From: Erysipelotrichaceae bacterium
GTDB taxonomy: Bacteria; Bacillota_I; Bacilli_A; Erysipelotrichales; Erysipelotrichaceae
DNA length: 64,000 nucleotides
Assembly: GCA_017539025.1 (NCBI GenBank)
Contig: JAFYHT010000007.1
Location: forward strand, 31,950-95,949
Direction of reading: 5' to 3'
Part shown: in pieces, positions 29,871 through 53,742 of the stretch
Layout: each line of letters begins with the position of its first letter
How positions within the stretch are numbered: position 1 is the first letter of the stretch
The notes under the pieces: model-generated
Told to the model about the DNA's origin: nothing
Databases searched by the model: none
Seen by the model: only the letters and a program-made list of their open reading frames with translations
Translations under genes and position numbers: made by a program

Positions 29871-31289
29871 CTATTTGACTGTGATGATCTTCATGAAGTT
29901 GGCAGAACCCTCGCCTGTCGGATAACCGGCAGACAGGATGATCTGTGCACCCGGCTTGATACCATAGGATTTGACAACACTGGAAGCCAGTTCGTCGTCA
30001 TTGGTCATATTGTTCTGCACATATGAGAAGATCGGTTTGACACCCCAGTAAAGCTCAAGCTTGCCCTGAGTGGACTTCGTAAACGTGACCGCAAAGATAG
30101 GAACCGGCGGGCGATACTTGGAGATCCTTCTGGCAGTCGTACCACCCTGCGTGAAGACGACGATCGCGGCGATATCAAGCGTCAAAGTTGCATCAGAGAT
30201 CGCGATACCGATCGCATCCTGAATGGTCTTGTTGTTGGTCATCTTGGCATGTTCAAGATTCTCTCTGTAAGGAATGATCTTTTCACTTGCTTCGGCAATC
30301 TTTGCCATCGTTTCAACAGCCTCAACCGGATATTCACCGGCAGCCGTTTCTGCCGACAACATGACCGCATCGGAACCATCCAGTACCGCATTGGAAACAT
30401 CGGCTGCTTCCGCACGCGTACATCTTGGATTGCTTGTCATGGAATCCAACATATGAGTTGCCGTAATGACAGCCTTACCCTTCTGGTTGGCAAGTTCGAT
30501 GATCTTCTTCTGATAGATCGGAACGAAAGCTGTTTCTACTTCGACGCCCAGATCGCCTCTGGCAACCATGACGCCATCTGCCGCTTCTAAGATCTCATCG
30601 AGATTGTCGAAACCTTCCTGGTTTTCGATCTTCGCAATGATCTGGATCTTCGGCTTGCCCATCTCGGTGATGATCTTTCTGATCTTCATGACATCTTCCG
30701 CTCTTCTGACGAAAGAAGCTGCGATGAAATCGACATCGTTGTTGCAACCAAAACGGATATCCTCATCATCCTTCATGGAAACAAAAGGCATTGACAGTTT
30801 GACACCCGGAACGTTACATCCCTTCTTGGAAGCCAGCGGACCGTTGACCTCAACTCTGGCCTTCATCTCATTGCCGTCATTCTCTAAAATCGTCAGTCTC
30901 TGTTTTCCATCATTGACCAGGATAAAGTCATTTGGCTTGATGTCATCAAAAACTTCCTTGCACTGGATCGTAAAACGATCATGTGTTCCTTCGATGTCTT
31001 CTCTCTGTATGGTGACGATCTCACCCTTCTGATAATTCTCAACATCATTCGCAAAAGTTCCCAGTCTGATCTCAGGACCCTTGGTATCCATCATGATACC
31101 CAGATTGATCCCGTTCTCCTTTTCAACCTTTCTGACCGTGTTGATCCTGGCCAGGTGTTCCTCATGTGTTCCATGAGAAAAGTTCAGTCTTACGATATTC
31201 ATACCTGCATTGGCCATCTTCAGGATCGTATCATACGAATCCGAAGCCGGACCCAGTGTGCAGATGATCTTCGTCTGCTTACCAATCAT
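29871..31289 (-). CDS. pyk: Pyruvate kinase
   Basis: Last ATP-forming step of glycolysis, PEP to pyruvate. The 472-residue protein shows KIICTLGPAS at the start, the RLNFSHG and MMDTKGPEIR blocks, the catalytic lysine region IIAKIENQEG, the MVARGDLGVE loop and the allosteric C-domain with VFTQGGTTARRISKYRPPVPI. It lacks the extra C-terminal PEP-utiliser domain of Bacillus enzymes. AAAGGAG lies 11 bases before the ATG. Last gene after patatin and XpaC-like genes. Confidence 0.96.
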   Translation of the reverse strand: MIGKQTKIICTLGPASDSYDTILKMANAGMNIVRLNFSHGTHEEHLARINTVRKVEKENGINLGIMMDTKGPEIRLGTFANDVENYQKGEIVTIQREDIEGTHDRFTIQCKEVFDDIKPNDFILVNDGKQRLTILENDGNEMKARVEVNGPLASKKGCNVPGVKLSMPFVSMKDDEDIRFGCNNDVDFIAASFVRRAEDVMKIRKIITEMGKPKIQIIAKIENQEGFDNLDEILEAADGVMVARGDLGVEVETAFVPIYQKKIIELANQKGKAVITATHMLDSMTSNPRCTRAEAADVSNAVLDGSDAVMLSAETAAGEYPVEAVETMAKIAEASEKIIPYRENLEHAKMTNNKTIQDAIGIAISDATLTLDIAAIVVFTQGGTTARRISKYRPPVPIFAVTFTKSTQGKLELYWGVKPIFSYVQNNMTNDDELASSVVKSYGIKPGAQIILSAGYPTGEGSANFMKIITVK

Positions 31290-43708: not shown

Positions 43709-45484
43709 TTAGAGTTCACTCTCCAGTTTCTGCAGATAGACCATCTTCTGATAGGTCTTTGAAGTTTCCATCAGTCTTTCCGGTGTATCAAAAGCCTCGA
43801 CTTCGCCGTCTTTGAGTACCAGGATCTTATCCATGTGCGCAACAGTCGAAACACGGGAAGCGATGATGATCGTCGTCTTTCCCTTCCTCTTTTCATTGAT
43901 GTTGTTCAAGATCGTCTCTTCTGTCTTCATATCGACAGCTGAAACCGCATCATCCATGATCATGATCGGGGAATTCTTCATATAGGCACGGGCGATCGAA
44001 ATACGCTGCTTCTGACCGCCTGATAAAGTCACTCCTCTTTCTCCTGTCACAGTATCGTAGCCTTCAGCGAAAGCAGTGATATTGTCATCGACATCCGCAA
44101 ACACTGCCGCATCCTTGATCTCAGCAAGATCAGCCTTGTTGTTGGAGAAAGAGATATTGTTTCTGATATTGTCAGAGAAAAGGAAATTGTCCTGCGGGAC
44201 ATATGCGATCGCATCCCGCAGACTCTTGATATTGATATCCATCAGATCAACATCATCGATGAAGATCTTTCCCTTTTCAATGTTGTAAAGTCTCAGTAAG
44301 GAATTGACCAGAGTTGTCTTGCCGGAGCCGATCTTACCGACAACACCGACCATTTCACCCGGCTGTATTTCAAAAGAAACATGTTTCAGAGAATCACGGT
44401 CACCATCGGGATAGGCAAAAGAGAAATCCCTGAAAGTGATCTTTCCCTTGCAGTCACTTAAAACGACCGCATTATCTGCGTCATGGATCTCTTCTTCCTG
44501 ATCCAGGAAAGAATAGATTCGATCAGCCGAAGTCTTGAAACGGGAGTGCATCTGCAGGATCTGACCCATGGCGATCATCGGCCAGATGAGGGTATCGACA
44601 TAACCGACGAAAGTCGTCAGCTTGCCGGCAGATAAAGTTACCGTATGACCTAAAAGGATGATCGGATTGCCCGTTGTATAACAATAGACAAAGTAAGAAC
44701 CGACACCCATCAGCAATGTCATCGTGATGCCGATGATCATCTCGATATAGACATCGAAACGGATCGACATCTTTACGAAATCCAGATTCTTCTGTCTGTT
44801 TTCCTCAGCTACCTTGCTGAAAGCCTTCAGTTCCTGTGCCTCCTTGACAAACGCCTTGATGACACGGATACCGGTAAAGGTCTCCTGCGTGAAATCATAG
44901 AGCTTGTCAAACATCTTCTGGCGGTCTTCCCACTTTTCGGACATGATCTTCTCGACCTTGTTGCCCCAGATGACCAGTGCCAGCATCGGAATGATCGCGA
45001 TCAGTGAAAGGATCGGATCAAGCCGTAACATCTTATAAAGGGAAACGATCGATAAGAACAGCGCGTCGACTGCCATGATCGTGCCCCAGCCGACGAATTC
45101 CTCGACTGCTTCCACATCGGAAGAGAACCACGACATGATCGTACCGATCTTGTTTTCGTGATAGTAGCGCTGAGACAGTCTTTCCGCCTTCAAAAACATC
45201 TCATGACGGATATTGGCCTCGATCAGGCCGGAAGCCCTCATGATCGTAAAACGAAGGATCGCTCTGCCAACCATCAGGATGAAAGCGATCAGGATGATAT
45301 TCCTGATGATATCGGAAATATCCGCTAATGTGACATTGGCATTTGAAGAAACGACCTCAACGATCTCACCTAAAAACTCAGGCACATAGGTCTGAGCAAC
45401 GTCTACCATGATATCGGCAAGTATTCCAAACAGGAAGAGCCAGATATATTTTAAGTAATAATCTCTTACGGTTTTCTTCTTCAT
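43709..45484 (-). CDS. ABC exporter half, degenerate ATP site (pair B, first gene)
   Basis: A 591-residue fused subunit with six helices, Walker A GKIGSGKTT, signature LSGGQKQR and Walker B IMIMDDAVSAVD, the catalytic glutamate being aspartate. Pairs with the downstream canonical half. No SD is seen before the ATG at 45484. Upstream lies a perfect inverted repeat with a TATAAT in it, and before that the MarR gene, the layout of a MarR-controlled multidrug exporter. Confidence 0.9.
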   Translation of the reverse strand: MKKKTVRDYYLKYIWLFLFGILADIMVDVAQTYVPEFLGEIVEVVSSNANVTLADISDIIRNIILIAFILMVGRAILRFTIMRASGLIEANIRHEMFLKAERLSQRYYHENKIGTIMSWFSSDVEAVEEFVGWGTIMAVDALFLSIVSLYKMLRLDPILSLIAIIPMLALVIWGNKVEKIMSEKWEDRQKMFDKLYDFTQETFTGIRVIKAFVKEAQELKAFSKVAEENRQKNLDFVKMSIRFDVYIEMIIGITMTLLMGVGSYFVYCYTTGNPIILLGHTVTLSAGKLTTFVGYVDTLIWPMIAMGQILQMHSRFKTSADRIYSFLDQEEEIHDADNAVVLSDCKGKITFRDFSFAYPDGDRDSLKHVSFEIQPGEMVGVVGKIGSGKTTLVNSLLRLYNIEKGKIFIDDVDLMDINIKSLRDAIAYVPQDNFLFSDNIRNNISFSNNKADLAEIKDAAVFADVDDNITAFAEGYDTVTGERGVTLSGGQKQRISIARAYMKNSPIMIMDDAVSAVDMKTEETILNNINEKRKGKTTIIIASRVSTVAHMDKILVLKDGEVEAFDTPERLMETSKTYQKMVYLQKLESEL

Positions 45485-45490
45485 GCTTAC

Positions 45491-45515
45491 AAAGAATGAT
45501 TATACATCATTCTTT
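45491..45515 (-). promoter_or_regulatory. Perfect inverted repeat over the exporter -10 box
   Basis: AAAGAATGAT, five-base centre, ATCATTCTTT. The minus-strand TATAAT lies at its centre, 14 bases before the ATG. It could be a repressor operator or an mRNA hairpin at the 5' end; there is no T-run, so it is not a usual terminator for marR. Confidence 0.55.
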
Positions 45516-45548
45516 ACTCTTTTTAGTCCTCAAAGAAAATAAAAAGCT

Positions 45549-46001
45549 TTATATCTCAGAAATGTTTTCTTTTTCTACTTTATCAACGTTCTCTACGATC
45601 TTTTCAGCAACTCTGAAAAAGGCGTCGAGATCCTCATTGCAGATATTCATGGTGATCAGTTCATCCAGTTTCTTCCCTCTGGCTTCGATCTCCGCTCCTT
45701 CTTCCTTGATCATATCCGTCAGACGGATATAGTTCCTTCTCTTGTCATCTTCTGCCGTTTCACGGACGATCAGTCCCTTTTCTTCCAGCACGTTCAGACA
45801 ACCGGTCATGGAAGCCTTCTTCAGACCGGTCACGATCTCCAGATCTTTCTGACAGACATTTTCATCCGGATGAGAGAATAAATAGCGGAGAACCTCTATC
45901 TGCGTATAGCTGTATATTTTCATCGGATTCTTGCCCTGAGACAAGTTTTTTCTGACAGCCATTTCCATATGTCTGATCTCTTTGATGATACTTCTTTCCA
46001 T
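45549..46001 (-). CDS. MarR-family transcriptional regulator
   Basis: A 150-residue winged-helix repressor: EVLRYLFSHPDENVCQKDLEIVTGLKKASMTGCLNVLEEKGLI is the helix-turn-helix, and the wing follows with DDKRRNYIRLTD. The C-terminal acidic helix serves dimerisation. AGGAGG lies right before the ATG. The gene precedes the exporter pair on the same strand, and an operator-like palindrome covers its promoter, so self-repression relieved by a ligand is likely. Confidence 0.92.
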   Translation of the reverse strand: MERSIIKEIRHMEMAVRKNLSQGKNPMKIYSYTQIEVLRYLFSHPDENVCQKDLEIVTGLKKASMTGCLNVLEEKGLIVRETAEDDKRRNYIRLTDMIKEEGAEIEARGKKLDELITMNICNEDLDAFFRVAEKIVENVDKVEKENISEI

Positions 46002-46017
46002 ATTCCTCCTGAGATTG

Positions 46018-46035
46018 GTTAGTTTTCAAACTAAC
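46018..46035 (-). promoter_or_regulatory. MarR-type operator upstream of the MarR gene
   Basis: GTTAGTTTTCAAACTAAC, an inverted repeat with eight-base arms, between the -10 box and the SD. The TTAGTTT...AAACTAA form is common for MarR operators. Confidence 0.75.
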
Positions 46036-46038
46036 TTC

Positions 46039-46067
46039 ATTATAATGAATATATATATTCAGTACAA
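46039..46067 (-). promoter_or_regulatory. Promoter of the MarR gene
   Basis: Minus strand -35 TTGTAC, 17-base spacer, -10 TATAAT, directly upstream of the operator. Confidence 0.75.
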
Positions 46068-46075
46068 AAGAAATG

Positions 46076-46106
46076 CCCAAAGAAAAAGGAATGAAACTCA
46101 TTCCTT
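46076..46106 (-). terminator. Terminator of the PckA/sodium-pump operon
   Basis: Minus strand: AAGGAATGA, loop GTT, TCATTCCTT, then TTTCTTT. The stop codon of the 44-residue ORF is in the left arm. Confidence 0.85.
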
Positions 46107-46232
46107 ATCTGTAAATACCTTGTTCAATACGATCGTCGACAAAGCGATGATACCCAGGGCAAAGAATAATCCAAGTTCACCCTTTAAGATATAGATCATA
46201 TTGGCGAAAAAATTCATTGGTGTAAAACTCAT
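46098..46232 (-). CDS. 44-residue membrane protein, possible extra subunit of the sodium pump
   Basis: A short ORF nine bases after the oadB stop. GGAGGGCAAT precedes its ATG, and its stop lies in the operon terminator, so it fits the operon exactly. The product begins MSFTPMNFFANMIYILKGE and continues with a hydrophobic helix (LGLFFALGIIALSTIVLNKV) and a short charged end, TDKE. Small extra subunits are known in related decarboxylases (the epsilon subunit of methylmalonyl-CoA decarboxylase), but I see no sequence match that proves this. Expression is well supported by position and SD; the role is inference. Confidence 0.75.
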   Translation of the reverse strand: MSFTPMNFFANMIYILKGELGLFFALGIIALSTIVLNKVFTDKE

Positions 46233-46241
46233 ATTGCCCTC

Positions 46242-47360
46242 CTACATGAAGAAACTCATGATCAGACCACCGGCAATGACCGAAGCGATCTGTCCGGAAA
46301 CGTTGACGCCCATTGAATGCATCAGCAGGAAGTTCTGATTGTCTTCCTCCAGACCCATCTTATGGATGATCCTGCCCGACATCGGGAAAGCCGAAATACC
46401 GGCAGCGCCGATCATCGGATTGACCTTCTTCTTAAGGAAGAGGTTCAGCAGTTTTGCAAACAGGACACCGCCTGCCGTATCAAATACGAACGCAAACAAG
46501 CCCATGCCTAAGATCATCAGTGTATCGACCTGCAGGAAGTTTTCTGCCTGCATCTGTGATGCGACTGTGATACCCAAGAGTAAGGTGATCATGTTTGCCA
46601 TAGCACCCTGAGCCGTATCGGATAAGCCATTGAGGACTCCGCATTCTTTCAAGAGGTTGCCAAACATCAGGAAACCGACAAGTGATACGGAAGCCGGAGA
46701 GATCAGACCTGCGATCACAGTGATGATGATCGGGAAGAGGATCCTGGTCGTCCTTGAAACATCCTTTGGTTCATAGTCCATGCGGATCATCCTCTCCTTT
46801 TTCGACGTCAGCAGTCTGATGACAGGAGGCTGGATGATCGGAACCAGTGCCATATAGGAATAGGCAGCTACCATGATCGGACCCAGATATGTGGAATGAA
46901 GCTTTTGTGCTACGACGATGGCTGTCGGACCATCCGCTGCACCGATCGTAGCGATCGAAGCTGCATCATTGACCGGGAAAAACATCGAAGCCAGGCAGAA
47001 GGTAAAGAAGATACCAAACTGAGCGGCTGCACCAAACATCATCAGTGCCGGATTCGTCAATAACGGGCCAAAGTCACACATCGCACCGATACCGATAAAC
47101 AGCAGTAACGGGAACAGCTCGTTGGCAATACCCGCATCATATAAAGAAGACAGCGGACCTTCCTGGAAGATGCCGTTGATATACTGATTGACTGCCCCAG
47201 ATAACGGCAGATTGACCAGAATTGCACCAAAACCGATCGGAAGCAATAAAGACGGTTCCATTTCCTTGGCGATCGCCAGATAGATCAGGATCCCTCCTAT
47301 CACCCACATCGTAACCTGCTGCCAGGTCAGGGCAAACAGATTCTCATACAGAAAACTCAT
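46242..47360 (-). CDS. oadB: Sodium-pumping decarboxylase beta subunit
   Basis: The membrane subunit that decarboxylates carboxybiotin and moves sodium out of the cell. The 372-residue protein has about nine to ten helices, the TIGAADGPTAIVV segment with the sodium-site aspartate and the GISAFPMSGRI segment matching the second sodium-site serine region of OadB. AAGGGGGA precedes the ATG. Oxaloacetate is the most likely substrate given pckA and OadA in the operon, though beta subunits of the methylmalonyl- and glutaconyl-CoA enzymes look alike. Confidence 0.92.
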   Translation of the reverse strand: MSFLYENLFALTWQQVTMWVIGGILIYLAIAKEMEPSLLLPIGFGAILVNLPLSGAVNQYINGIFQEGPLSSLYDAGIANELFPLLLFIGIGAMCDFGPLLTNPALMMFGAAAQFGIFFTFCLASMFFPVNDAASIATIGAADGPTAIVVAQKLHSTYLGPIMVAAYSYMALVPIIQPPVIRLLTSKKERMIRMDYEPKDVSRTTRILFPIIITVIAGLISPASVSLVGFLMFGNLLKECGVLNGLSDTAQGAMANMITLLLGITVASQMQAENFLQVDTLMILGMGLFAFVFDTAGGVLFAKLLNLFLKKKVNPMIGAAGISAFPMSGRIIHKMGLEEDNQNFLLMHSMGVNVSGQIASVIAGGLIMSFFM

Positions 47361-47372
47361 AGATATTCCCCC

Positions 47373-48086
47373 TTAAATATGGAATGTGACCTCTGAAGAA
47401 TTCAGATTCACGATCCTTCCCTGATCATTGACTCTCAGAGAATAATCGTGATCGATCCCCATTACTTTGACCTGTTTCCTTTCTCCTGAGATCAAGGCAT
47501 ATACATCCTTTCCCTTGAGATAGTCATAACAACAGATCTCATCGCAGAAATCATATCCGCATTTCAGTTTTTCAATATTCTCGCTTAATACCTGATAGAC
47601 TCTTTTTCTTAATGAAACGATATCGATATCTTCATTCAGCACTCTCTTCATCGAAACAGGCTCATGGATCATATCTTTATCAAAATCTGTCTGATTGACA
47701 TTGAGACCGATCCCGCAGATCACAGCTTCCAGTCTTTCATGTGAGATCCCTTCCAAGAGGATCCCGCAGATCTTTCCGTCTCTTACAAAGACATCATTTG
47801 GCCACTTGATCATCACATCATCGACCCCATACTCTTCCAATACTTTGATAATGGAATATGCACACAGGATCGAAAGACAGGAATACTGATCCAGCACTTT
47901 CTCATCTTTTATCAGAAGAGAAAACATCAGATTCAATCCCTTGCTTGAAGACCAGTTTCTCTGATTCCTTCCTCTGCCCACACTCTGATAGTCGCTGCTT
48001 AGAAAGGTCATATCTTCCAGTTCATCAACATGTTTCTTCAGATACGTGTTGGTCGAATCGATCGTTTCAAAGAAAAGTTCTTTCAT
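47373..48086 (-). CDS. birA: Biotin-protein ligase (no DNA-binding domain)
   Basis: Attaches biotin to the carrier lysine via biotinyl-AMP. The 237-residue protein holds only the catalytic and C-terminal domains: SVGRGRNQRNW is the biotinyl-AMP loop (usual GRGRRGR), KWPNDV is the catalytic lysine segment, and GIGLNVNQ follows. There is no N-terminal helix-turn-helix, so it should not be a repressor. Its start shares TAATG with the stop of the carrier gene, which ties ligase to its target. Confidence 0.92.
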   Translation of the reverse strand: MKELFFETIDSTNTYLKKHVDELEDMTFLSSDYQSVGRGRNQRNWSSSKGLNLMFSLLIKDEKVLDQYSCLSILCAYSIIKVLEEYGVDDVMIKWPNDVFVRDGKICGILLEGISHERLEAVICGIGLNVNQTDFDKDMIHEPVSMKRVLNEDIDIVSLRKRVYQVLSENIEKLKCGYDFCDEICCYDYLKGKDVYALISGERKQVKVMGIDHDYSLRVNDQGRIVNLNSSEVTFHI

Positions 48087-48430
48087 TATTCCAGAACGAT
48101 CAGGACATCCTTGTTGCGGACGTCATCGCCCTTCTTGACAAGGATCTGTTTGACCTTGCCGTCAAATGCTGACTGGATCTCGTTTTCCAGCTTCATTGCC
48201 TCGATCAGAGCGACAGTCTGGCCTTTTGTGACCATCTCACCGACATTGACCTTGATACCGAGGATCTTGCCTGCGATCGGAGCCAGGATCTGATTGGTCC
48301 CTTCGCTGACAACAGCTTTCTTTTCTTCTTTCTTTACGACAGGAGCCTCAACATTGCCCTGTACTTCATCAACAGCCTCTACTTCAACTTCATAGACCTT
48401 GCCGTTGACCTTGACCTTATATACTTTCAT
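48086..48430 (-). CDS. Biotin carboxyl carrier subunit of the decarboxylase
   Basis: A 114-residue carrier. The biotinyl domain occupies the C-terminal 70 residues, with the target lysine in IEAMKLENE. A valine/glutamate/lysine-rich linker precedes it. It swings carboxybiotin between OadA and OadB. Two adjacent ATGs are possible (48433 and 48430); GGGAGG is better spaced for the second. In this operon the carrier is separate from OadA, whereas in many enzymes it is the OadA C-terminus. Confidence 0.9.
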   Translation of the reverse strand: MKVYKVKVNGKVYEVEVEAVDEVQGNVEAPVVKKEEKKAVVSEGTNQILAPIAGKILGIKVNVGEMVTKGQTVALIEAMKLENEIQSAFDGKVKQILVKKGDDVRNKDVLIVLE

Positions 48431-48432
48431 CA

Positions 48433-48690
48433 TCAGACCTCCCTTACACTTACGATCCTCACATTTTTATGAGATTCATTGCGACATTCGATCGCCGCTA
48501 TAAGACATGCGACAGTCGCATCTTCATCATCGAGATCCAAAGGCATGACAGTGCTTTGCGTCTCTTCTTCTTGAATTTCTGTTTCTGTTTCTTTTTCAAC
48601 CTTTTTCTTGGAAGACTTCAGGATGAATGCCAGGATGATCGAATAGACGATGATGGCACAGATCCCTGAATAATTACTTAACAGTTCCAT
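48433..48690 (-). CDS. Sodium-pumping decarboxylase gamma-type subunit
   Basis: An 85-residue protein with one N-terminal helix (residues about 8-24, SGICAIIVYSIILAFIL), a lysine/glutamate-rich linker and a short C-terminal domain (MPLDLDDEDATVACLIAAIE). This is the layout of OadG/MmdD, which anchors and organises the complex. The ATG at 48690 is 11 bases after the oadA stop. Confidence 0.82.
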   Translation of the reverse strand: MELLSNYSGICAIIVYSIILAFILKSSKKKVEKETETEIQEEETQSTVMPLDLDDEDATVACLIAAIECRNESHKNVRIVSVREV

Positions 48691-48701
48691 GTTTCATCCT
48701 C

Positions 48702-50078
48702 CTATACAAACATCTCGAATTCATCGATCTCTTTTGTCCCGTTCAAGCCGTATTTCTTTGTCAGGAAATTGACTGCGACATTCTCAAACAGAGCCAGAGA
48801 CAGTACATCTTCATCACATCTGGCGATATCACTGTACTTCTTCTTGAGATTCTCAAATTCCGGCTTGAGCAGATCTGCCGGACGGCAGGTGATGGTCTCA
48901 TCATCACCGATGATCTTCTTCCTGACATCCTGATCGACCTCAGCAGGAGCTCTTCCGTACTTACCGTGCAGATAATCTCTGACTTCCTTGATCGTGATCT
49001 TGTATCTCTCGCCCATCAGCACATTCATGACGGCTTGCGTACCGACCATCTGCGACATCGGTGTAACAAGCGGAGGATAACCGAGGTCTCTTCTGACCTT
49101 CGGGATCTCCAGCATGACTTCGTCATATCTGTCCATCGCATCCTGATCACGAAGCTGTTTGATCATGTTTGAAAGCATGCCGCCTGGAACCTGATAGAAG
49201 AGGATCTTCGGGTTTACCTGCATGGACTTCCAGCTCATCAGACCGTTATTGACATACTTGTCGATGATCTTGGACATCATCGGCTCTGCACGCTGTACGA
49301 CGTGAAGATCCATGTGCGGATCATATTTCGTACCTGCGAGCGAATTGATCAGAGCCTGTGTCGAAGGCTGTGCCGTTCCATCTGAACAAGGCGAAAGAGA
49401 TGTATCGATGATATCGACACCTGCCTCGATCGCCGCCAGATAAGTCATCGTAGCCACGCCGGCTGTTGAATGAGAATGCAGCTCGATTGGGATATGGACC
49501 TGTTTCTTCAAAGCTGTGACCAGTTTTCTCGCATCCTCCGGAAGCAAGACACCGGCCATGTCCTTGATACACAATGAATCACAACCCAACTGTTCGATCT
49601 GTTTTCCCAGATCGACGAAATAGTCAATCGTATGGACCGGTGATGTCGTATAGCATAAAGCGATCTGACATTCACCGCCGTATTTCTTTGTTGACTCTAC
49701 AGCCTGTTTCAGATTCCTGAGATCATTTAAGGCATCGAATATCCTGATGATATCGATACCGTTTTCGATCGACTTCTTGCAGAACATATCTACGACATCA
49801 TCGGAATAATGACGGTAGCCTAAGATGTTCTGTCCTCGAAACAGCATCTGCAGCTTGGTCTTCTTGCAGACCTTCCTTACCTCTCTGAGTCTCTCCCAAG
49901 GATCCTCATCGAGGAAACGCATGGCGGCATCAAACGTCGCACCGCCCCACATTTCGATCGCGTGAAAACCAGCCTGATCATAAAGTCTGCACAGATCAAC
50001 GACTTCCTGCGTCGTCATTCTGGTCGCAAACAAAGACTGCTGACCATCACGTACCGATGTTTCAACGATCCTAACCAT
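48702..50078 (-). CDS. oadA: Oxaloacetate decarboxylase alpha subunit (carboxyltransferase)
   Basis: Transfers the carboxyl group from oxaloacetate to carrier biotin. The 458-residue TIM-barrel protein has SVRDGQQS at the start, IKDMAG with the carbamylated lysine, and HSHSTAG with metal-binding histidines. The conserved helical domain follows, but there is no C-terminal biotinyl domain; that function is coded two genes downstream. GGGGAG precedes the ATG. Sequence is closest to OadA-type carboxyltransferases; pyruvate carboxylase is excluded by the missing biotin carboxylase domain. Confidence 0.93.
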   Translation of the reverse strand: MVRIVETSVRDGQQSLFATRMTTQEVVDLCRLYDQAGFHAIEMWGGATFDAAMRFLDEDPWERLREVRKVCKKTKLQMLFRGQNILGYRHYSDDVVDMFCKKSIENGIDIIRIFDALNDLRNLKQAVESTKKYGGECQIALCYTTSPVHTIDYFVDLGKQIEQLGCDSLCIKDMAGVLLPEDARKLVTALKKQVHIPIELHSHSTAGVATMTYLAAIEAGVDIIDTSLSPCSDGTAQPSTQALINSLAGTKYDPHMDLHVVQRAEPMMSKIIDKYVNNGLMSWKSMQVNPKILFYQVPGGMLSNMIKQLRDQDAMDRYDEVMLEIPKVRRDLGYPPLVTPMSQMVGTQAVMNVLMGERYKITIKEVRDYLHGKYGRAPAEVDQDVRKKIIGDDETITCRPADLLKPEFENLKKKYSDIARCDEDVLSLALFENVAVNFLTKKYGLNGTKEIDEFEMFV

Positions 50079-50091
50079 ATACTCCCCTTAT

Positions 50092-51696
50092 TTAAAGTCT
50101 GGGACCTGCTTCTACGAGCTTCTTCCCGGCTTCGTTATTTTCATATTTCTTGAAATTCTTGATGAATCTTGACGCAAGATCCTTTGCCTTTTCTTCCCAG
50201 ACGCTCTTGTCTTCATATGTATCGCGCGGATCCAGGATACCTGTATCGACACCTTCCAGCTCCAGAGGAACTTCCAGATTGAAGTAAGGGATCTTCTTGG
50301 TCTCAGCCTTATTGATGGCGCCATTCAAGATCGCATCGATGATACCTCTGGTATCTTTGATCGAAATACGCTTGCCGGAACCATTCCAACCGGTATTGAC
50401 CAGATAAGCCTTGGCACCGCTCATTTCCATCTTCTTGACCAGTTCTTCACCATACTTGGTCGGATGTAACTCCAGAAACGCCTGACCGAAACAAGCCGAG
50501 AAAGTCGGAGTCGGTTCAGTGATCCCTCTTTCCGTACCTGCCAGCTTGGCTGTAAAACCGGAAAGGAAATAATACTTCGTCTGTTCCGGATCCAGGATAG
50601 ATACCGGTGGAAGTACACCAAATGCATCTGCAGAAAGGAAAATGACATTCTCTGCAGCCGGTGCACTTGATACAGGCTTTACGATCTTTTCGATGTGATC
50701 GATCGGATAGGAAACTCTCGTATTTTCCGTCACACTCTTGTCGTGGAAATCGATCTTTCCGTTTTCATCGACAGTGACGTTTTCCAGTAACGCATCTCTT
50801 CTGATCGCCGCATAGATATCCGGCTCACTCTCTTTATCCAGATCGATGACCTTGGCATAGCAGCCACCTTCCAGATTGAAGACACCGTTGTCATCCCAGC
50901 CGTGCTCATCATCACCGACCAGTAATCTCTTCGGGTCAGCGGATAATGTGGTCTTGCCTGTACCGGAAAGACCAAAGAAGATGGCAGTATTCTTTCCATT
51001 CATATCGGTATTTGCCGAACAGTGCATCGAAGCGATGCCTCTTAACGGCAGATAGTAATTCATCATTGAGAACATGCCCTTCTTCATCTCACCGCCATAC
51101 CAGGTATTGATGATGACCTGTTCCTTGGAAGTGATATTGAAAGCGACACAAGTCTCAGAATTCAGACCGAGTTCCTCATAATTTTCAACCTTTGCCTTGG
51201 AAGCACAATAGACGACGAATTCAGGTTCAAAGTTCTCCAGTTCCTCATCACTTGGTTTGATGAACATGTTTCTGACAAAATGTGCCTGCCATGCGACTTC
51301 CATGATGAACCTGACAGCCATCCTGGTATCCTTGTTGGCGCCGCAGAACGCATCTACGACAAATAATCTCTTATCGCTCAGCTGTCTCTTAGCCAGATCC
51401 AGCATCTGTTTCCAGACATCTTCAGACATCGGGTGATTGTCATTTGGATAATCCTTTGAAGTCCACCAGATGGTGTCCTTTGAATTCTCATCCATGACGA
51501 TGTATTTATCCTTCGGCGAACGTCCGGTATAGATACCGGTCATGACATTTACCGCATCAAGCTCAGTCAGCTGGCCCTTTTCATAGCCCTCCAGTTCAGG
51601 CTTCATCTCCTCTTCAAAAAGAGTTTCGTAGGAAGGATTGTATACGACTTCCTGCGGGTTTGTGATCCCATATTTTTCCAGATCGATCTTCTTCAT
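50092..51696 (-). CDS. pckA: Phosphoenolpyruvate carboxykinase (ATP)
   Basis: Interconverts oxaloacetate + ATP and PEP + CO2 + ADP. The 534-residue protein carries the P-loop [32 protein letters not shown] and [13 protein letters not shown] chose the ATG at 51696 after AAAGGGGA; the frame is open to 51732. It heads the operon with the sodium-pump decarboxylase, 13 bases before oadA, which favours the direction PEP to oxaloacetate with ATP gain in a fermenting cell (inference). Confidence 0.95.
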
Positions 51697-51740
51697 TGCG
51701 ATCCCCTTTCTTTCTGTTACAAAAAACAGCATTCCGTTAC

Positions 51741-51746
51741 ATTATA
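51741..51746 (-). promoter_or_regulatory. Extended -10 of the pckA operon
   Basis: Minus strand TGTTATAAT (extended TGn -10), about 45 bases before the pckA ATG. No good -35. A GCCTT-TT-AAGGC inverted repeat lies just upstream at 51770-51781. Confidence 0.55.
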
Positions 51747-51817
51747 ACACTCTTTAAGGGCTGATTTTTGCCTTTTAAGGCTCTTTTTCAAGAAATTACG
51801 AACATATTTTCTGATTA

Positions 51818-51833
51818 CTGAAAACATTTTCAG
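51818..51833. promoter_or_regulatory. cre-like palindrome upstream of pckA
   Basis: CTGAAAACATTTTCAG contains TGAAAACATTTTCA, one base off the CcpA-binding consensus TGWAANCGNTNWCA. It lies about 75 bases upstream of the pckA -10 box and downstream of the PTS gene terminator as read on the chromosome. Confidence 0.5.
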
Positions 51834-51851
51834 ATAAGCCCTGTTTTCACA

Positions 51852-51879
51852 TAAAAAGCCGCCCGTTTCCAGGCGGCTT
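51852..51879 (-). terminator. Terminator of the sucrose-type operon
   Basis: Minus strand: AAGCCGCC, eight-base loop, GGCGGCTT, then TTTAT, right after the PTS gene. Confidence 0.88.
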
Positions 51880-51900
51880 GATCAGCTATTGATATGAGTA

Positions 51901-53742
51901 CTATACAGACTTCTTGACTTCGCTGTAATCAGCAGCATTGGTCAGAGCGACGATGACTGTATCAGGATGGCCTGCATCCTTGATCGTATCCCTGTTGAAG
52001 CTCATGAGCTTATCGCCCTTCTTGAACTTCGCACCGGAATCAACGAATGTTTCGAAACCTTCACCATTCATCGTGACAGTATCAACACCGACGTGGATCA
52101 GCAATTCCATACCACCCTCATCAGCCTTGAGACCCATCGCATGCTTGGTCGGGAAGACCATGACGACTTCGCCATCGAATGGTGCATATACGATACCGTC
52201 ATCCGGTTCGATACCGACAGACGGACCCATCATTTCACCGGCAAATGCGGCATCAGGGATCTCACTTGCGGAAATGACCTTACCGCTTACAGGAGAAAGG
52301 ATCTCACCCTTTTCAGTTGTAATGACGACTTCTTCCGGAGCCTTCTTCTCTACGACGGGTTCAACCTTCTTTTCTTCTTCATGCCAGAACAGGAATGTCA
52401 GAACGAATGCGACACCACCTGAGATCGCCAGCAGGATCGTGTATGGAAGAGCCTTGTTGATGATCAGATAACCAGGAAGACCTGTGACACCGTAAGATGT
52501 TGCACCCAAGCCCATCCATGAACCGAACATCGCGCCAATCGCGCCACCGGCCATACCGAAGAGGAATGGTTTCATGTAACGGAAGTTGACACCGAAGATC
52601 GCCGGCTCTGTGATACCTAAAGCAGCAGACAGAGAAGACGGGATGGCAACAGCCTTTGTCTTTGGATTCTTTGTCTTGAGACCGACAGCCAAGCAGGCAC
52701 CGAACTGTGCGAAGTTCGCAGCAGAAGCGATCGGCATCCAGATGTTCAGATTGCCGAATTCCTTGGATGACAGCAGACCTGCTTCGATCGCGTTGTACAT
52801 GTGGTGCAGGCCCATGACGACAGTCCAAGGATAGACAGCACCCATAGCCAGTGAACCGATACCGAAGCCGACTGTGATCAGCCATGAAGCAAATCTTAAG
52901 ACATAAGATTCAGCAGTCGAGAAGATCGGACCGATGATCGTGAAAGTCAGGAATGAAGTAACAAATACCGTTACCAACGGAGTGACGAACAAGTCGATCA
53001 TCTCCGGAACATGCTTGTGCAGCCACTTTTCGATCGTGGACATGACCCATACGGCAATGATGACCGGGATGACATGTCCCTGATAACCTGTCTGCGGAAC
53101 GTTGAAGAACAGTAATTTCCAGCTAGGAAGTACTTCGTAGTTACCGACAGTCCAGGCATTGATCAGATTCGGGTGGATCATCAGCAGACCGATGACAGCG
53201 CCCAGATATACGTTGCCGCCGAAGACTCTGGCAGCAGACATTGCGATGATACCAGGCAAGAATACGAATGCCGCATTGGCGATCATATCCAGGTAAGAGA
53301 ACCAGTCAGAAGCACCAAAGCTCGGGATTGCCTTTGCCAATGACTCGACGATACCCATCATCAGACCGGAAGCAACGATTGCCGGCAGGATCGGAACGAA
53401 GACATCGCCCAATGCCTTGACCAGACGTTTTGGAAGCGGCTGTTTTGCGGCAGCAGCTGCCTTGACTTCTTCCTTGGTCGCAGCCGTTACACCGCTGACT
53501 GCGATGAACTCGTCATAGACCTTGTTGACAGTACCGGTTCCGATGATCAGCTGCAGCTGACCGTTGGAATCGAATAGACCCTGAACACCCTCAACATCTT
53601 CCAGTTTCTTGGTGTCCAGCTTGCTGTTGTCGGCGATTACAAGACGTAAACGCGTCGCACAGTGAGCAGCGCTGATGATGTTGTCCTTGCCGCCTAAGCA
53701 CGCAAAGATCTCTTCAGCACATTTACGATAATCAAGTGCCAT
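51901..53742 (-). CDS. PTS EIIBCA, sucrose/beta-glucoside type
   Basis: Imports and phosphorylates a sugar. The 613-residue fusion has EIIB (residues 1-90, phospho-Cys28 in AAHCATRLR), EIIC (about 105-450, with PAIVASGLMMG and GITEPAIFGVNFRYM), and EIIA (last 140 residues, SPVSGKVI and LLIHVGVDTV with the phospho-histidine). AAGGGGGA precedes the ATG. The fructokinase and amylosucrase-like genes upstream point to sucrose; a beta-glucoside is the alternative. Confidence 0.92.
   Translation of the reverse strand: MALDYRKCAEEIFACLGGKDNIISAAHCATRLRLVIADNSKLDTKKLEDVEGVQGLFDSNGQLQLIIGTGTVNKVYDEFIAVSGVTAATKEEVKAAAAAKQPLPKRLVKALGDVFVPILPAIVASGLMMGIVESLAKAIPSFGASDWFSYLDMIANAAFVFLPGIIAMSAARVFGGNVYLGAVIGLLMIHPNLINAWTVGNYEVLPSWKLLFFNVPQTGYQGHVIPVIIAVWVMSTIEKWLHKHVPEMIDLFVTPLVTVFVTSFLTFTIIGPIFSTAESYVLRFASWLITVGFGIGSLAMGAVYPWTVVMGLHHMYNAIEAGLLSSKEFGNLNIWMPIASAANFAQFGACLAVGLKTKNPKTKAVAIPSSLSAALGITEPAIFGVNFRYMKPFLFGMAGGAIGAMFGSWMGLGATSYGVTGLPGYLIINKALPYTILLAISGGVAFVLTFLFWHEEEKKVEPVVEKKAPEEVVITTEKGEILSPVSGKVISASEIPDAAFAGEMMGPSVGIEPDDGIVYAPFDGEVVMVFPTKHAMGLKADEGGMELLIHVGVDTVTMNGEGFETFVDSGAKFKKGDKLMSFNRDTIKDAGHPDTVIVALTNAADYSEVKKSV

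Follow-up and report, generated by a model that had tools for sequence, protein, structure and literature searches.

A pckA–oxaloacetate decarboxylase gene run in an Erysipelotrichaceae bacterium as a candidate sodium-exporting route from PEP to pyruvate, with a gamma subunit that is most likely split

Introduction

Why does a PEP carboxykinase gene head a run of genes for what looks like a sodium-pumping oxaloacetate decarboxylase (OAD)? The question is raised by a 64,000-nucleotide stretch (the window) of an Erysipelotrichaceae genome, G000, in which a sequence-only reading had seen an energy-conserving PEP-to-pyruvate operon. As reactions, PEPCK followed by OAD is not a new idea, having been proposed for clostridia in 2012 as a bypass of pyruvate kinase/PPDK (PMC3561251). 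The available part of that paper gives the same two PEP-to-pyruvate reactions, with ATP or GTP at the PEPCK step, but it mentions neither an operon nor a coupling of the decarboxylase to sodium, whereas here the genes form one run together with birA and a pump subunit gene. We found no description of such an operon as a sodium-coupled step in the open-licence literature.

Results

The run lies on the minus strand in the order pckA, oadA, an oadG-like gene, a biotin carrier gene, birA, oadB and a small ORF, sORF44. The gaps are 13 nt between pckA and oadA, 11 nt between oadA and oadG, 12 nt between birA and oadB and 9 nt between oadB and sORF44, and the oadG-carrier and carrier-birA pairs overlap by 1 nt. 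The first six genes had been read as consecutive on one strand in this order, and the gene assignments and junctions (-1 to 13 nt) bear this out. The small ORF (46232-46098) fell within the interval of that reading and was not named in it; we add it as the seventh gene. Judging from the junctions, the seven would form one transcript.

A terminator-like hairpin (51856..51879, minus strand; 10 pairs, 7 of them G-C, and a T tail) separates pckA from the upstream neighbour of the run, a sugar PTS gene, and another (46086..46106, minus strand; 9 pairs, T tail) is placed at the end of sORF44, where the run stops. One more minus-strand hairpin-like site is found within oadA (49420-49402). Such sites occur at chance level, since the scan of 45400-52100 on both strands gave 5 of them against 4.8 in shuffled sequences. 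By eye, an extended -10 promoter-like element, TGTTATAAT (TG-T-TATAAT), can be read 5′ of pckA (51741..51749, minus strand), and the automatic promoter scan came out below chance (7 against 11.5 expected). We took 51696 as the start of pckA, as in the sequence-only reading, because the by-eye -10 element would put the start of the transcript at about the ATG of the longer ORF (51732).

PckA (534 aa; 50092..51696, minus strand) is an ATP-type PEP carboxykinase, with a full-length match to TIGR00224 (813 bits, cut-off 590), a PF01293 score of 674 bits and the P-loop GLSGTGKTT. Its closest solved relative, over nearly the whole length, is 1ytm (903 bits), which we take to be the enzyme of the succinate producer Anaerobiospirillum. 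This match is a hint that PckA may belong to the PEP-carboxylating type of succinate producers.

OadA (458 aa; 48702..50078, minus strand) is the carboxyltransferase (alpha) subunit, without a biotin domain. It exceeds the cut-offs of PF00682 and PF02436, as a carboxyltransferase of the pyruvate/oxaloacetate type, and stays under the equivalog cut-offs of NF008985 (OAD alpha; 698 against 718) and TIGR01108 (640 against 757), the latter shortfall probably reflecting the coding of the biotin domain by a gene of its own. The best solved relative is 5ks8, 'pyruvate carboxylase subunit beta' (479 bits), followed by 2nx9, 'oxaloacetate decarboxylase 2, subunit alpha' (459 bits). The biotin carrier protein (115 aa; 48086..48433, minus strand; PF00364, 61 bits) has the biotin-accepting lysine in its EAMKLEN site, and BirA (237 aa; 47373..48086, minus strand) is a biotin protein ligase (TIGR00121, 137 bits, cut-off 83). 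OadB (372 aa; 46242..47360, minus strand), the membrane carboxybiotin decarboxylase and Na+ pump subunit, scores 499 bits with PF03977 and 419 bits with TIGR01109 (cut-off 191), and its sole solved relative is the OAD beta chain of 6iva/6iww (326 bits). According to the available text on the Salmonella enzyme, Na+ is bound in StOAD beta by D203, S382 and N412 (PMC7274780); D143, S323 and N353 of OadB align with them, so that the known Na+ residues are common to both. These subunits are homologues of those of the Na+-pumping OAD, with oxaloacetate as the predicted substrate and predicted Na+ transport. In the Salmonella and other enterobacterial enzymes, as far as that text goes, the biotin domain is part of alpha and gamma is a single polypeptide; here alpha is split, and gamma most likely is too.

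The probable split of gamma deserves closer attention. The OadG-like protein (85 aa; 48433..48690, minus strand) has a short predicted membrane anchor (hydropathy peak 2.09 from residue 9) followed by a C-terminal gamma tail. It gave no match in Pfam and NCBIfam scans, but aligns at model positions 32-113 (E 1.9e-12) with a profile built on seven intact OadG proteins from related loci. The product of sORF44 (46098..46232, minus strand) is a 44-aa predicted membrane peptide (hydropathy peak 2.09) with 30 homologues of 41-47 aa (70-95% identity), none of which contains a Pfam domain; its pN/pS against five relatives is 0.13-0.50. One relative, from a citrate locus, matches positions 2-34 of OAD_gamma (PF04277) below the cut-off (E 0.0042), and the window's own peptide gives no match to this family. 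The peptide follows OadB in 16 of the 16 members of the clade to which the window's OadB belongs and in 0 of the 53 others. In the Salmonella beta-gamma structure, gamma residues 2-43 are the portion visible with beta, and the C-terminal tail is reported to interact with alpha (PMC7274780). By this comparison, sORF44 is most likely the split-off, OadB-binding membrane-anchor helix of gamma, and the OadA-binding tail is most likely the 85-aa OadG-like protein. No description of a split gamma was found in the open-licence literature, and the peptide may be an OAD subunit absent from the descriptions of the enzyme that we found.

The citrate OAD of Enterococcus faecalis (oadHDB-citCDEFX-oadA; PMC3198936, PMC6193673) is split as well, into OadA, the biotin carrier OadD and OadB in the available text, and its OadH has been proposed as the functional equivalent of OadG (PMC6193673). 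The same portion of text gives four subunits and no 44-aa peptide. Two loci with a layout like that of E. faecalis (L082 and L163) contain an ORF of 44-46 aa between oadB and citC, and the peptide could explain how the carboxyltransferase is retained at the membrane in pumps with a soluble OadH-like tail. The E. faecalis OAD is described as fed by citrate lyase, for which the genus of the window gave no match.

Where would the oxaloacetate come from? In profile searches of 21 genomes of the genus, citrate lyase alpha (PF04223) and PEP carboxylase were each found in 0/21; these absences are uncertain, as the draft of G000 has a completeness of 94.5% and a contamination of 5.8%, and several of the other genomes fall short of that completeness, the lowest at 57%. 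Biotin carboxylase (PF02785) was detected in one of the 21, class I fumarase/tartrate dehydratase (PF05681) in three and an Ldh_1 malate/lactate dehydrogenase in one, and none of these in the draft G000. Two other roles for the complex were considered and set aside: a two-subunit pyruvate carboxylase, whose biotin carboxylase partner was not found in the draft, and an OAD of citrate or tartrate fermentation, for which neither PF04223 in the genus nor PF05681 in G000 was found. PEP is favoured as the source by the lack of matches in the draft to citrate lyase, to either of the two carboxylases and to class I fumarase/tartrate dehydratase.

Malate is another candidate. A contig of G000 (C50) codes for an Ldh_2-family dehydrogenase (PF02615, 398 bits) 2 nt before a malic enzyme (PF00390/PF03949). 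The top solved match of the Ldh_2 protein is 3i0p, named malate dehydrogenase, and its top NCBIfam match is a sulfolactate dehydrogenase, below the cut-off; indeed, neither protein reaches any NCBIfam cut-off. The dehydrogenase is likely of the malate type. With this pair, oxaloacetate could be supplied from malate, or be diverted from the pump into a malate shunt.

A sodium gradient could be used by the ATP synthase. The Na+ ring motif of F. nucleatum comprises Glu32, Glu65-Ser66 and Tyr70 (PMC3692424). When aligned to 3zk1, the c subunit coded in the genome has Glu, Glu-Thr and Tyr at these places, and Cys in place of Thr67. Its four top solved matches are 4bem (twice), 3zk1 and 1yce, the last titled sodium-specific and the other two presumably Na+ rings by their source organism. 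By motif, it is thus a c subunit of the two-carboxylate Na+ type.

The sequence-only reading had also asked whether the linkage recurs in the order. In a survey of 196 genomes of the order, with PckA counted at 133 bits or more and linkage defined as within 12 kb on one contig, OadB was found in 48, PckA in 65 and both in 30. The two are adjacent in 20 of these 30, against 0.33 expected by random placing, on the same strand in every case (20/20), with pckA first in 12 and oad first in 8; linked genomes of one genus are non-independent in these counts. They are apart in the other 10, several of them near contig ends, and in 5 of the 9 cases of a phylum sample. Among 80 PckA loci sampled separately, oad genes lie within the flanks covered for 11, in three arrangements, including records of Pseudoflavonifractor and Mogibacterium (named as Clostridia), and none were found within the flanks covered for the other 69. 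On the OadB tree (69 rows), the PckA-linked state requires at least 9 changes. Three loci of the window's genus (L094, L095 and L159) have the same operon with an OadB only 47-49% identical to the window's, PckA being 84-85% and OadA 73-74% identical; by these identities, the pump subunit differs while the pairing persists. The linkage exceeds chance and recurs in scattered lineages in both gene orders, and this recurrence in re-arranged order suggests selection for the pairing as such. Citrate lyase genes are in the flank of two of the 30 PckA-linked rows (L091, L144) and three of the 10 PEPCK-like-linked rows (L082, L083, L163). In these loci it is more likely that both PckA/PEPCK-like enzyme and OAD consume oxaloacetate, PckA working towards PEP.

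Discussion

In the reading that we favour, PckA would carboxylate PEP to oxaloacetate with formation of one ATP, and OAD would decarboxylate oxaloacetate to pyruvate with export of Na+. The CO2 taken up in the first step would be given back in the second, and we propose that high CO2 therefore favours this route over pyruvate kinase. The gain would be up to two Na+ per PEP, which for a c ring of 11 subunits is equivalent to no more than about half an ATP. Published energies are -27.7 kJ/mol for pyruvate kinase, -6.8 for PEPCK towards PEP (+6.8 towards oxaloacetate) and -34.4 for OAD (PMC8100219); the detour thus totals the same as pyruvate kinase, with the drop placed in the pumping step.

We give a probability of about 0.5 to the seven-gene run serving as one PEP-oxaloacetate-pyruvate route with sodium export, in which the direction of PckA towards oxaloacetate is what we infer. 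The energy-conserving operon of the sequence-only reading stands as far as the gene run, the recurrent linkage, the Na+ residues of OadB, the Na+-type c subunit, the searches without citrate lyase, PEP carboxylase or biotin carboxylase match and the balanced energies go; the flux direction on which it depends is predicted, and the Ldh_2-malic enzyme pair and the citrate lyase loci weigh against it. The fuller picture is tentative: a sugar fermenter would end glycolysis through a CO2-recycling PckA and a Na+-pumping OAD, with one ATP and up to two Na+ per PEP, using biotin for the pump and for no carboxylase, in a pairing assembled several times and with a 44-residue split-off gamma anchor as a new fifth subunit. 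If the flux is as proposed, glycolysis in these cells would draw from PEP an energy gain beyond substrate-level ATP, with CO2 as a recycled cofactor. A pckA-oad run recurrent in several lineages, and here without a citrate lyase match, offers a directly testable case.

The alternative that survives best, possible though on the whole unlikely, is an oxaloacetate drain, in which malate (through the Ldh_2-type enzyme) or aspartate gives oxaloacetate, OAD turns it into pyruvate while pumping sodium, and PckA works in the direction of PEP to support sugar synthesis, which is also its likely role in the related citrate loci. The Ldh_2 dehydrogenase and malic enzyme fit this scheme, as do the citrate lyase genes beside PckA/PEPCK-like and OAD genes in 5 of 40 linked rows. 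A similar cluster in Sulfurospirillum multivorans (SMUL_0789-0791), with PEPCK beside OadB-like and pyruvate carboxylase/OadA-like genes, is placed by its authors, in the available part of their paper, in a gluconeogenic context (PMC6242987); the window's genome differs in giving no biotin carboxylase match. However, citrate lyase alpha was missing from all 21 genus genomes searched, the flanking ORFs scanned include no organic-acid carrier, the upstream gene is a sugar PTS gene, and malic enzyme was not found in 9 of the 21; one of these nine, G136 (87% complete), has linked pckA-oad.

PckA might also serve mainly anaplerosis, supplying oxaloacetate for aspartate-family building blocks while OAD does no more than vent the surplus and aid sodium export. 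We consider this improbable: neither PEP carboxylase nor biotin carboxylase, nor any other carboxylase, was found in the genome, which fits such a role, but a shared gene run would tie the drain to the supply, and the re-arranged recurrence suggests selection on the pair. A pump working in reverse, where the sodium gradient drives pyruvate to oxaloacetate and PckA makes PEP for gluconeogenesis without pyruvate carboxylase, seems very improbable. A conventional pyruvate carboxylase does seem unavailable, no biotin carboxylase having been found, but the decarboxylation releases about 34 kJ/mol, a review terms it irreversible (PMC8100219), and a large sodium gradient would be required to reverse it. 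That PckA and OAD are close without metabolic reason is scarcely credible given their adjacency, common strand and two orders and the loci in records named as Clostridia, even with 10 of 30 genomes keeping them apart.

Coming back to the PEP-to-pyruvate route that we favour, a close functional relative is the malate shunt of Clostridium thermocellum (PMC8100219), where PEPCK also works towards oxaloacetate in glycolysis and whose dehydrogenase and malic enzyme have a likely counterpart in the Ldh_2-malic enzyme pair of the window's genome. What the shunt saves is reducing power (NADH to NADPH); with OAD, energy would instead be stored as a sodium gradient. C. thermocellum is without pyruvate kinase; in the window, the pyruvate kinase gene seen in the sequence-only reading is indeed present as an alternative PEP-to-pyruvate step (pyk, 29871..31289, minus strand; PF00224, 418 bits; PF02887, 94 bits), and its presence was counted against the PckA-OAD route.

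The pckA-oad gene run

Read along the minus strand from 51696 to 46098, pckA is followed by oadA, an oadG-like gene (85 aa, 48690-48433), a biotin carrier gene, birA, oadB and a 44-aa ORF predicted to encode a membrane peptide (sORF44, 46232-46098). PckA, OadA, the carrier, BirA and OadB each have clear family matches, which together with the gene order bear out the genes, order and strand named in the sequence-only reading. The pyruvate kinase (PK) gene that it had also noted in the window lies at 29871-31289. The successive junctions from pckA to the 44-aa ORF measure 13, 11, -1, -1, 12 and 9 nt, from which a single transcript spanning all seven genes is inferred. Between pckA and the sugar PTS gene upstream of it stands a T-tailed hairpin, another hairpin comes after the 44-aa ORF, and an extended -10 element, read by eye, lies ahead of pckA; a promoter scan gave a count below chance.

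A CcpA-like palindrome upstream of pckA (TGAAAATGTTTTCA, 51832-51819) was rejected as a cre site, because the pattern occurs at chance frequency: allowing one mismatch, there are 6 occurrences on both strands of the window versus 5.2 expected, a count equalled or exceeded in 42 of 100 shuffles. The upstream 260 nt of four related loci (L002, L003, L160 and L161) and the 153 nt of L006 contain no match closer than two mismatches. Downstream of the operon, after a 96-nt gap, a MarR-type regulator gene (45549-46001) lies on the same strand.

The window's draft genome (2.35 Mb, 71 contigs) is 94.5% complete and 5.8% contaminated. The nearest relatives of its PckA and OadB belong to metagenome-assembled genomes from the gut of goats and cattle that carry the label Erysipelotrichaceae (L002, L003, L006).

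Linkage of pckA and oad genes across genomes

A search for the same gene order in other genomes of the order had been proposed with the sequence-only reading, and the pairing indeed recurs. Among 196 genomes of the order, evenly drawn from a larger group, OadB was found in 48, PckA in 65 and both in 30. The two genes are adjacent (within 12 kb on one contig) in 20 of these 30, where random placing expects 0.33; all 20 pairs are on the same strand, with pckA first in 12 and the oad genes first in 8. In several of the 10 non-adjacent genomes, one of the two genes lies close to the end of a contig. In a phylum sample of 392 genomes, nine carry both genes and four have them adjacent, three of these four being from the window's family. 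OadB entries had to exceed the family cut-off, which left out genome G013 from the order and G013 and G360 from the phylum. PckA was called at 133 bits or more, and its diverged PEPCK-like relatives at 50-100 bits in the order and 39-100 bits in the phylum; weaker PF01293 matches and the 122-bit and 56-bit fragments of a broken gene in G061 were not counted alone. Fisher co-occurrence tests for PckA and OadB ignore relatedness, and were set aside as evidence.

Among the best 80 PckA loci of a genome collection, whose flanks end at contig ends, oad genes lie nearby in at least 11 (L002, L003, L006, L022, L027, L037, L045, L058, L061, L063 and L074, with only a fragment in L045 and L058), and the available flank of the other 69 holds none. 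Three arrangements occur in the 11: pckA upstream of the oad genes, the oad genes upstream of pckA, and divergent. L061 is a Pseudoflavonifractor record. In a tree built from 69 OadB proteins the PckA-linked state needs at least nine changes, gains or losses. This tree was quick and has several long branches, and was used for the change count and the starred groups only; OadB matches below 200 bits or ORFs below 300 aa were left out, hence the absence of L045 and L058. The script assigned 29 PckA-linked rows, and L152, with a PckA fragment at its contig end, was added by hand to make 30.

In the Mogibacterium locus L063 (9860-14477), one run holds pckA, an acyl-CoA carboxyltransferase-like ORF (by eye), OadG, carrier, OadB and OadA, as if two carboxyl donors fed one pump. 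Another Erysipelotrichaceae record carries PF01326, the N-terminal domain of pyruvate phosphate dikinase (PPDK), a few genes past the pckA-oad run (L027:16257-17597). BioY biotin importer genes (PF02632) adjoin pckA in two operons (L094:9050-9568; L125:5763-6377, there between birA and pckA), and biotin supply thus travels with the pump.

PEPCK-like genes and exchange of oadB

PEPCK-like genes (L082:1754-3310; L084:4594-6228; L085:6776-8407; L132:8780-10468; L136:4871-6550) form a deeply diverged family. Three members are 21-24% identical to the window's PckA, and PF01293 scores of 40-85 bits fall far below the NCBIfam cut-offs, with the P-loop and several conserved columns kept. They adjoin oad genes in 7/7 order genomes and 7/9 phylum genomes with both, two genomes being common to both sets, and in L132 and L136 the PEPCK-like gene occupies the exact pckA slot of the operon.

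The oadB gene has been swapped, in either direction, within an otherwise conserved run, and the pairing of pckA with the pump was kept. Three loci of the window's genus (L094, L095, L159) have the same operon, with PckA 84-85% and OadA 73-74% identical to those of the window, but OadB only 47-49% identical. On the tree the OadB of these loci groups with that of L027 and of the PEPCK-like operons L132-L134, whereas the window, its close kin and two loci of sister genera (L092 and L093) fall in a far clade of 16 rows (support 100), whose other members are three citrate loci, the PEPCK-like locus L084, L126 and L137.

Predicted sodium coupling, energetics and direction of flux

The window's OadB has D143, S323 and N353 at the positions of Asp203, Ser382 and Asn412 in Salmonella OadB, which are implicated in sodium binding (PMC7274780, excerpt). 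It also keeps Tyr, Asn and Gly at 229, 373 and 377. The ATP synthase c subunit of the same genome (L115:1480-1710) carries the two-carboxylate Na+ motif: compared with the Na+ ring of Fusobacterium nucleatum, it has Glu at Glu32, Glu-Thr at Glu65-Ser66 and Tyr at Tyr70, and Cys replaces Thr67. Among solved structures it best matches the Na+ rings 4bem (two chains), 3zk1 and 1yce. Direct use of the sodium gradient for ATP is thus predicted from sequence.

On the route considered here, PckA would carboxylate PEP to oxaloacetate, which the oxaloacetate decarboxylase (OAD) pump would convert to pyruvate while exporting Na+. The review PMC8100219 gives -27.7 kJ/mol for PK, -6.8 for PEPCK (oxaloacetate to PEP) and -34.4 for OAD, with an error of 6.2 on the last two; the path through oxaloacetate then sums to +6.8 - 34.4 = -27.6 kJ/mol on these values, the same total as PK. 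The energy drop would be concentrated in the pumping step. OAD is reported to pump up to 2 Na+ (PMC8473912, excerpt), and a Na+ ring of 11 subunits is described (PMC3692424, 2013, excerpt). Passing through such a ring, 2 Na+ would yield no more than roughly 0.55 ATP. The rumen is high in CO2, and this would favour the first, PEP-carboxylating, step.

The sequence-only reading took the run for an energy-conserving way from PEP to pyruvate. The gene run, its recurrent linkage and the Na+ residues speak for it, but the PckA-OAD pairing alone gives no direction of flux, and the rival explanations taken together account for roughly half the weight. Against this route, citrate lyase genes stand beside 2/30 PckA-linked and 3/10 PEPCK-like-linked rows, and in such loci PckA is more likely to run towards PEP; PMC6242987, too, places the S. 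multivorans cluster in a gluconeogenic context. A bypass of PK and PPDK by PEPCK plus oxaloacetate decarboxylase is already in print (PMC3561251); it uses the same pair, but the part available describes no sodium coupling, which is proposed for the window's route. In the portions available of the openly licensed literature, we found neither a pckA-oad operon described as a sodium-conserving glycolytic step nor a split OAD gamma, which is weak as evidence of absence. Further related papers, likewise available in part, are PMC4478896, PMC3608648, PMC6193673 and PMC10798043.

Other sources of oxaloacetate were sought in the window's genome and 20 others of its genus (completeness 57-99%). Neither citrate lyase alpha nor PEP carboxylase was found in any of the 21. 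Biotin carboxylase, Ldh_1-type malate or lactate dehydrogenase and class I fumarase/tartrate dehydratase were not found in the window's genome, and occur in 1/21, 1/21 and 3/21 genomes, respectively. If biotin carboxylase is truly absent, the window's genome would have no biotin-type pyruvate or acetyl-CoA carboxylase, so that the operon's carrier and BirA would serve the pump alone. The 20 of 21 genomes without a biotin carboxylase match may lack the usual acetyl-CoA carboxylase, in which case fatty acids would be imported or made otherwise.

Malic enzyme is present in 12/21 genomes, the window's included, where an Ldh_2-family dehydrogenase gene lies 2 nt before it (L164:2452-4745, contig 50). 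With a dehydrogenase of this other family present, the absence of Ldh_1_C is not taken to mean that malate dehydrogenase is missing. The dehydrogenase (PF02615) has as best solved match 3i0p, named malate dehydrogenase, and as best NCBIfam match, below cut-off, sulfolactate dehydrogenase. With PckA, this pair could act as a malate shunt of the C. thermocellum kind, here beside the sodium route; it could also supply oxaloacetate from malate. Some malic-enzyme-family proteins have soluble oxaloacetate decarboxylase activity (PMC8100219, excerpt).

A putative split gamma subunit

sORF44 is likely a new small subunit. It has 30 homologues of 41-47 aa at 70-95% identity, none with a Pfam domain, and is under constraint, with pN/pS of 0.13, 0.29, 0.23, 0.50 and 0.25 against five relatives. 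Similar ORFs of 44-46 aa follow oadB in L082, L083, L084 and L163. An earlier, loose filter flagged chance ORFs (L027, L061, L087, L155), and a profile built from seven same-clade peptides was used instead: it detects the peptide after 16/16 OadB of the window's clade and 0/53 others. Of the 16 positives, 8 are circular and 8 are not; the circular ones are the seven that built the profile and L161, whose peptide and OadB are identical to those of L002, probably the same record.

Homology to gamma is suggested by this co-occurrence, by the place after oadB, by alignment to the citrate-locus peptides (27-32% identity for the nearer two, 23% for the third), and by one relative's peptide, which matches the first half of OAD_gamma below cut-off (PF04277 positions 2-34 of 76, E 0.0042). 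Pfam gives no match for the peptide of the window itself, and a profile of sORF44-type peptides found none among solved chains. The segment of gamma visible on beta in the Salmonella structure comprises residues 2-43, and gamma's C-terminal tail reportedly interacts with alpha (PMC7274780, excerpt). On these grounds we read the window's gamma as putatively split, with sORF44 supplying the anchor and the 85-aa protein the tail, the two presumably sitting in one complex. In L082 and L163, the two loci examined, the tail of gamma is encoded on its own as a 101-103-aa protein without a strong membrane helix, with hydropathy peaks of 0.89 and 1.48 versus 2.09 in the window's two small proteins.
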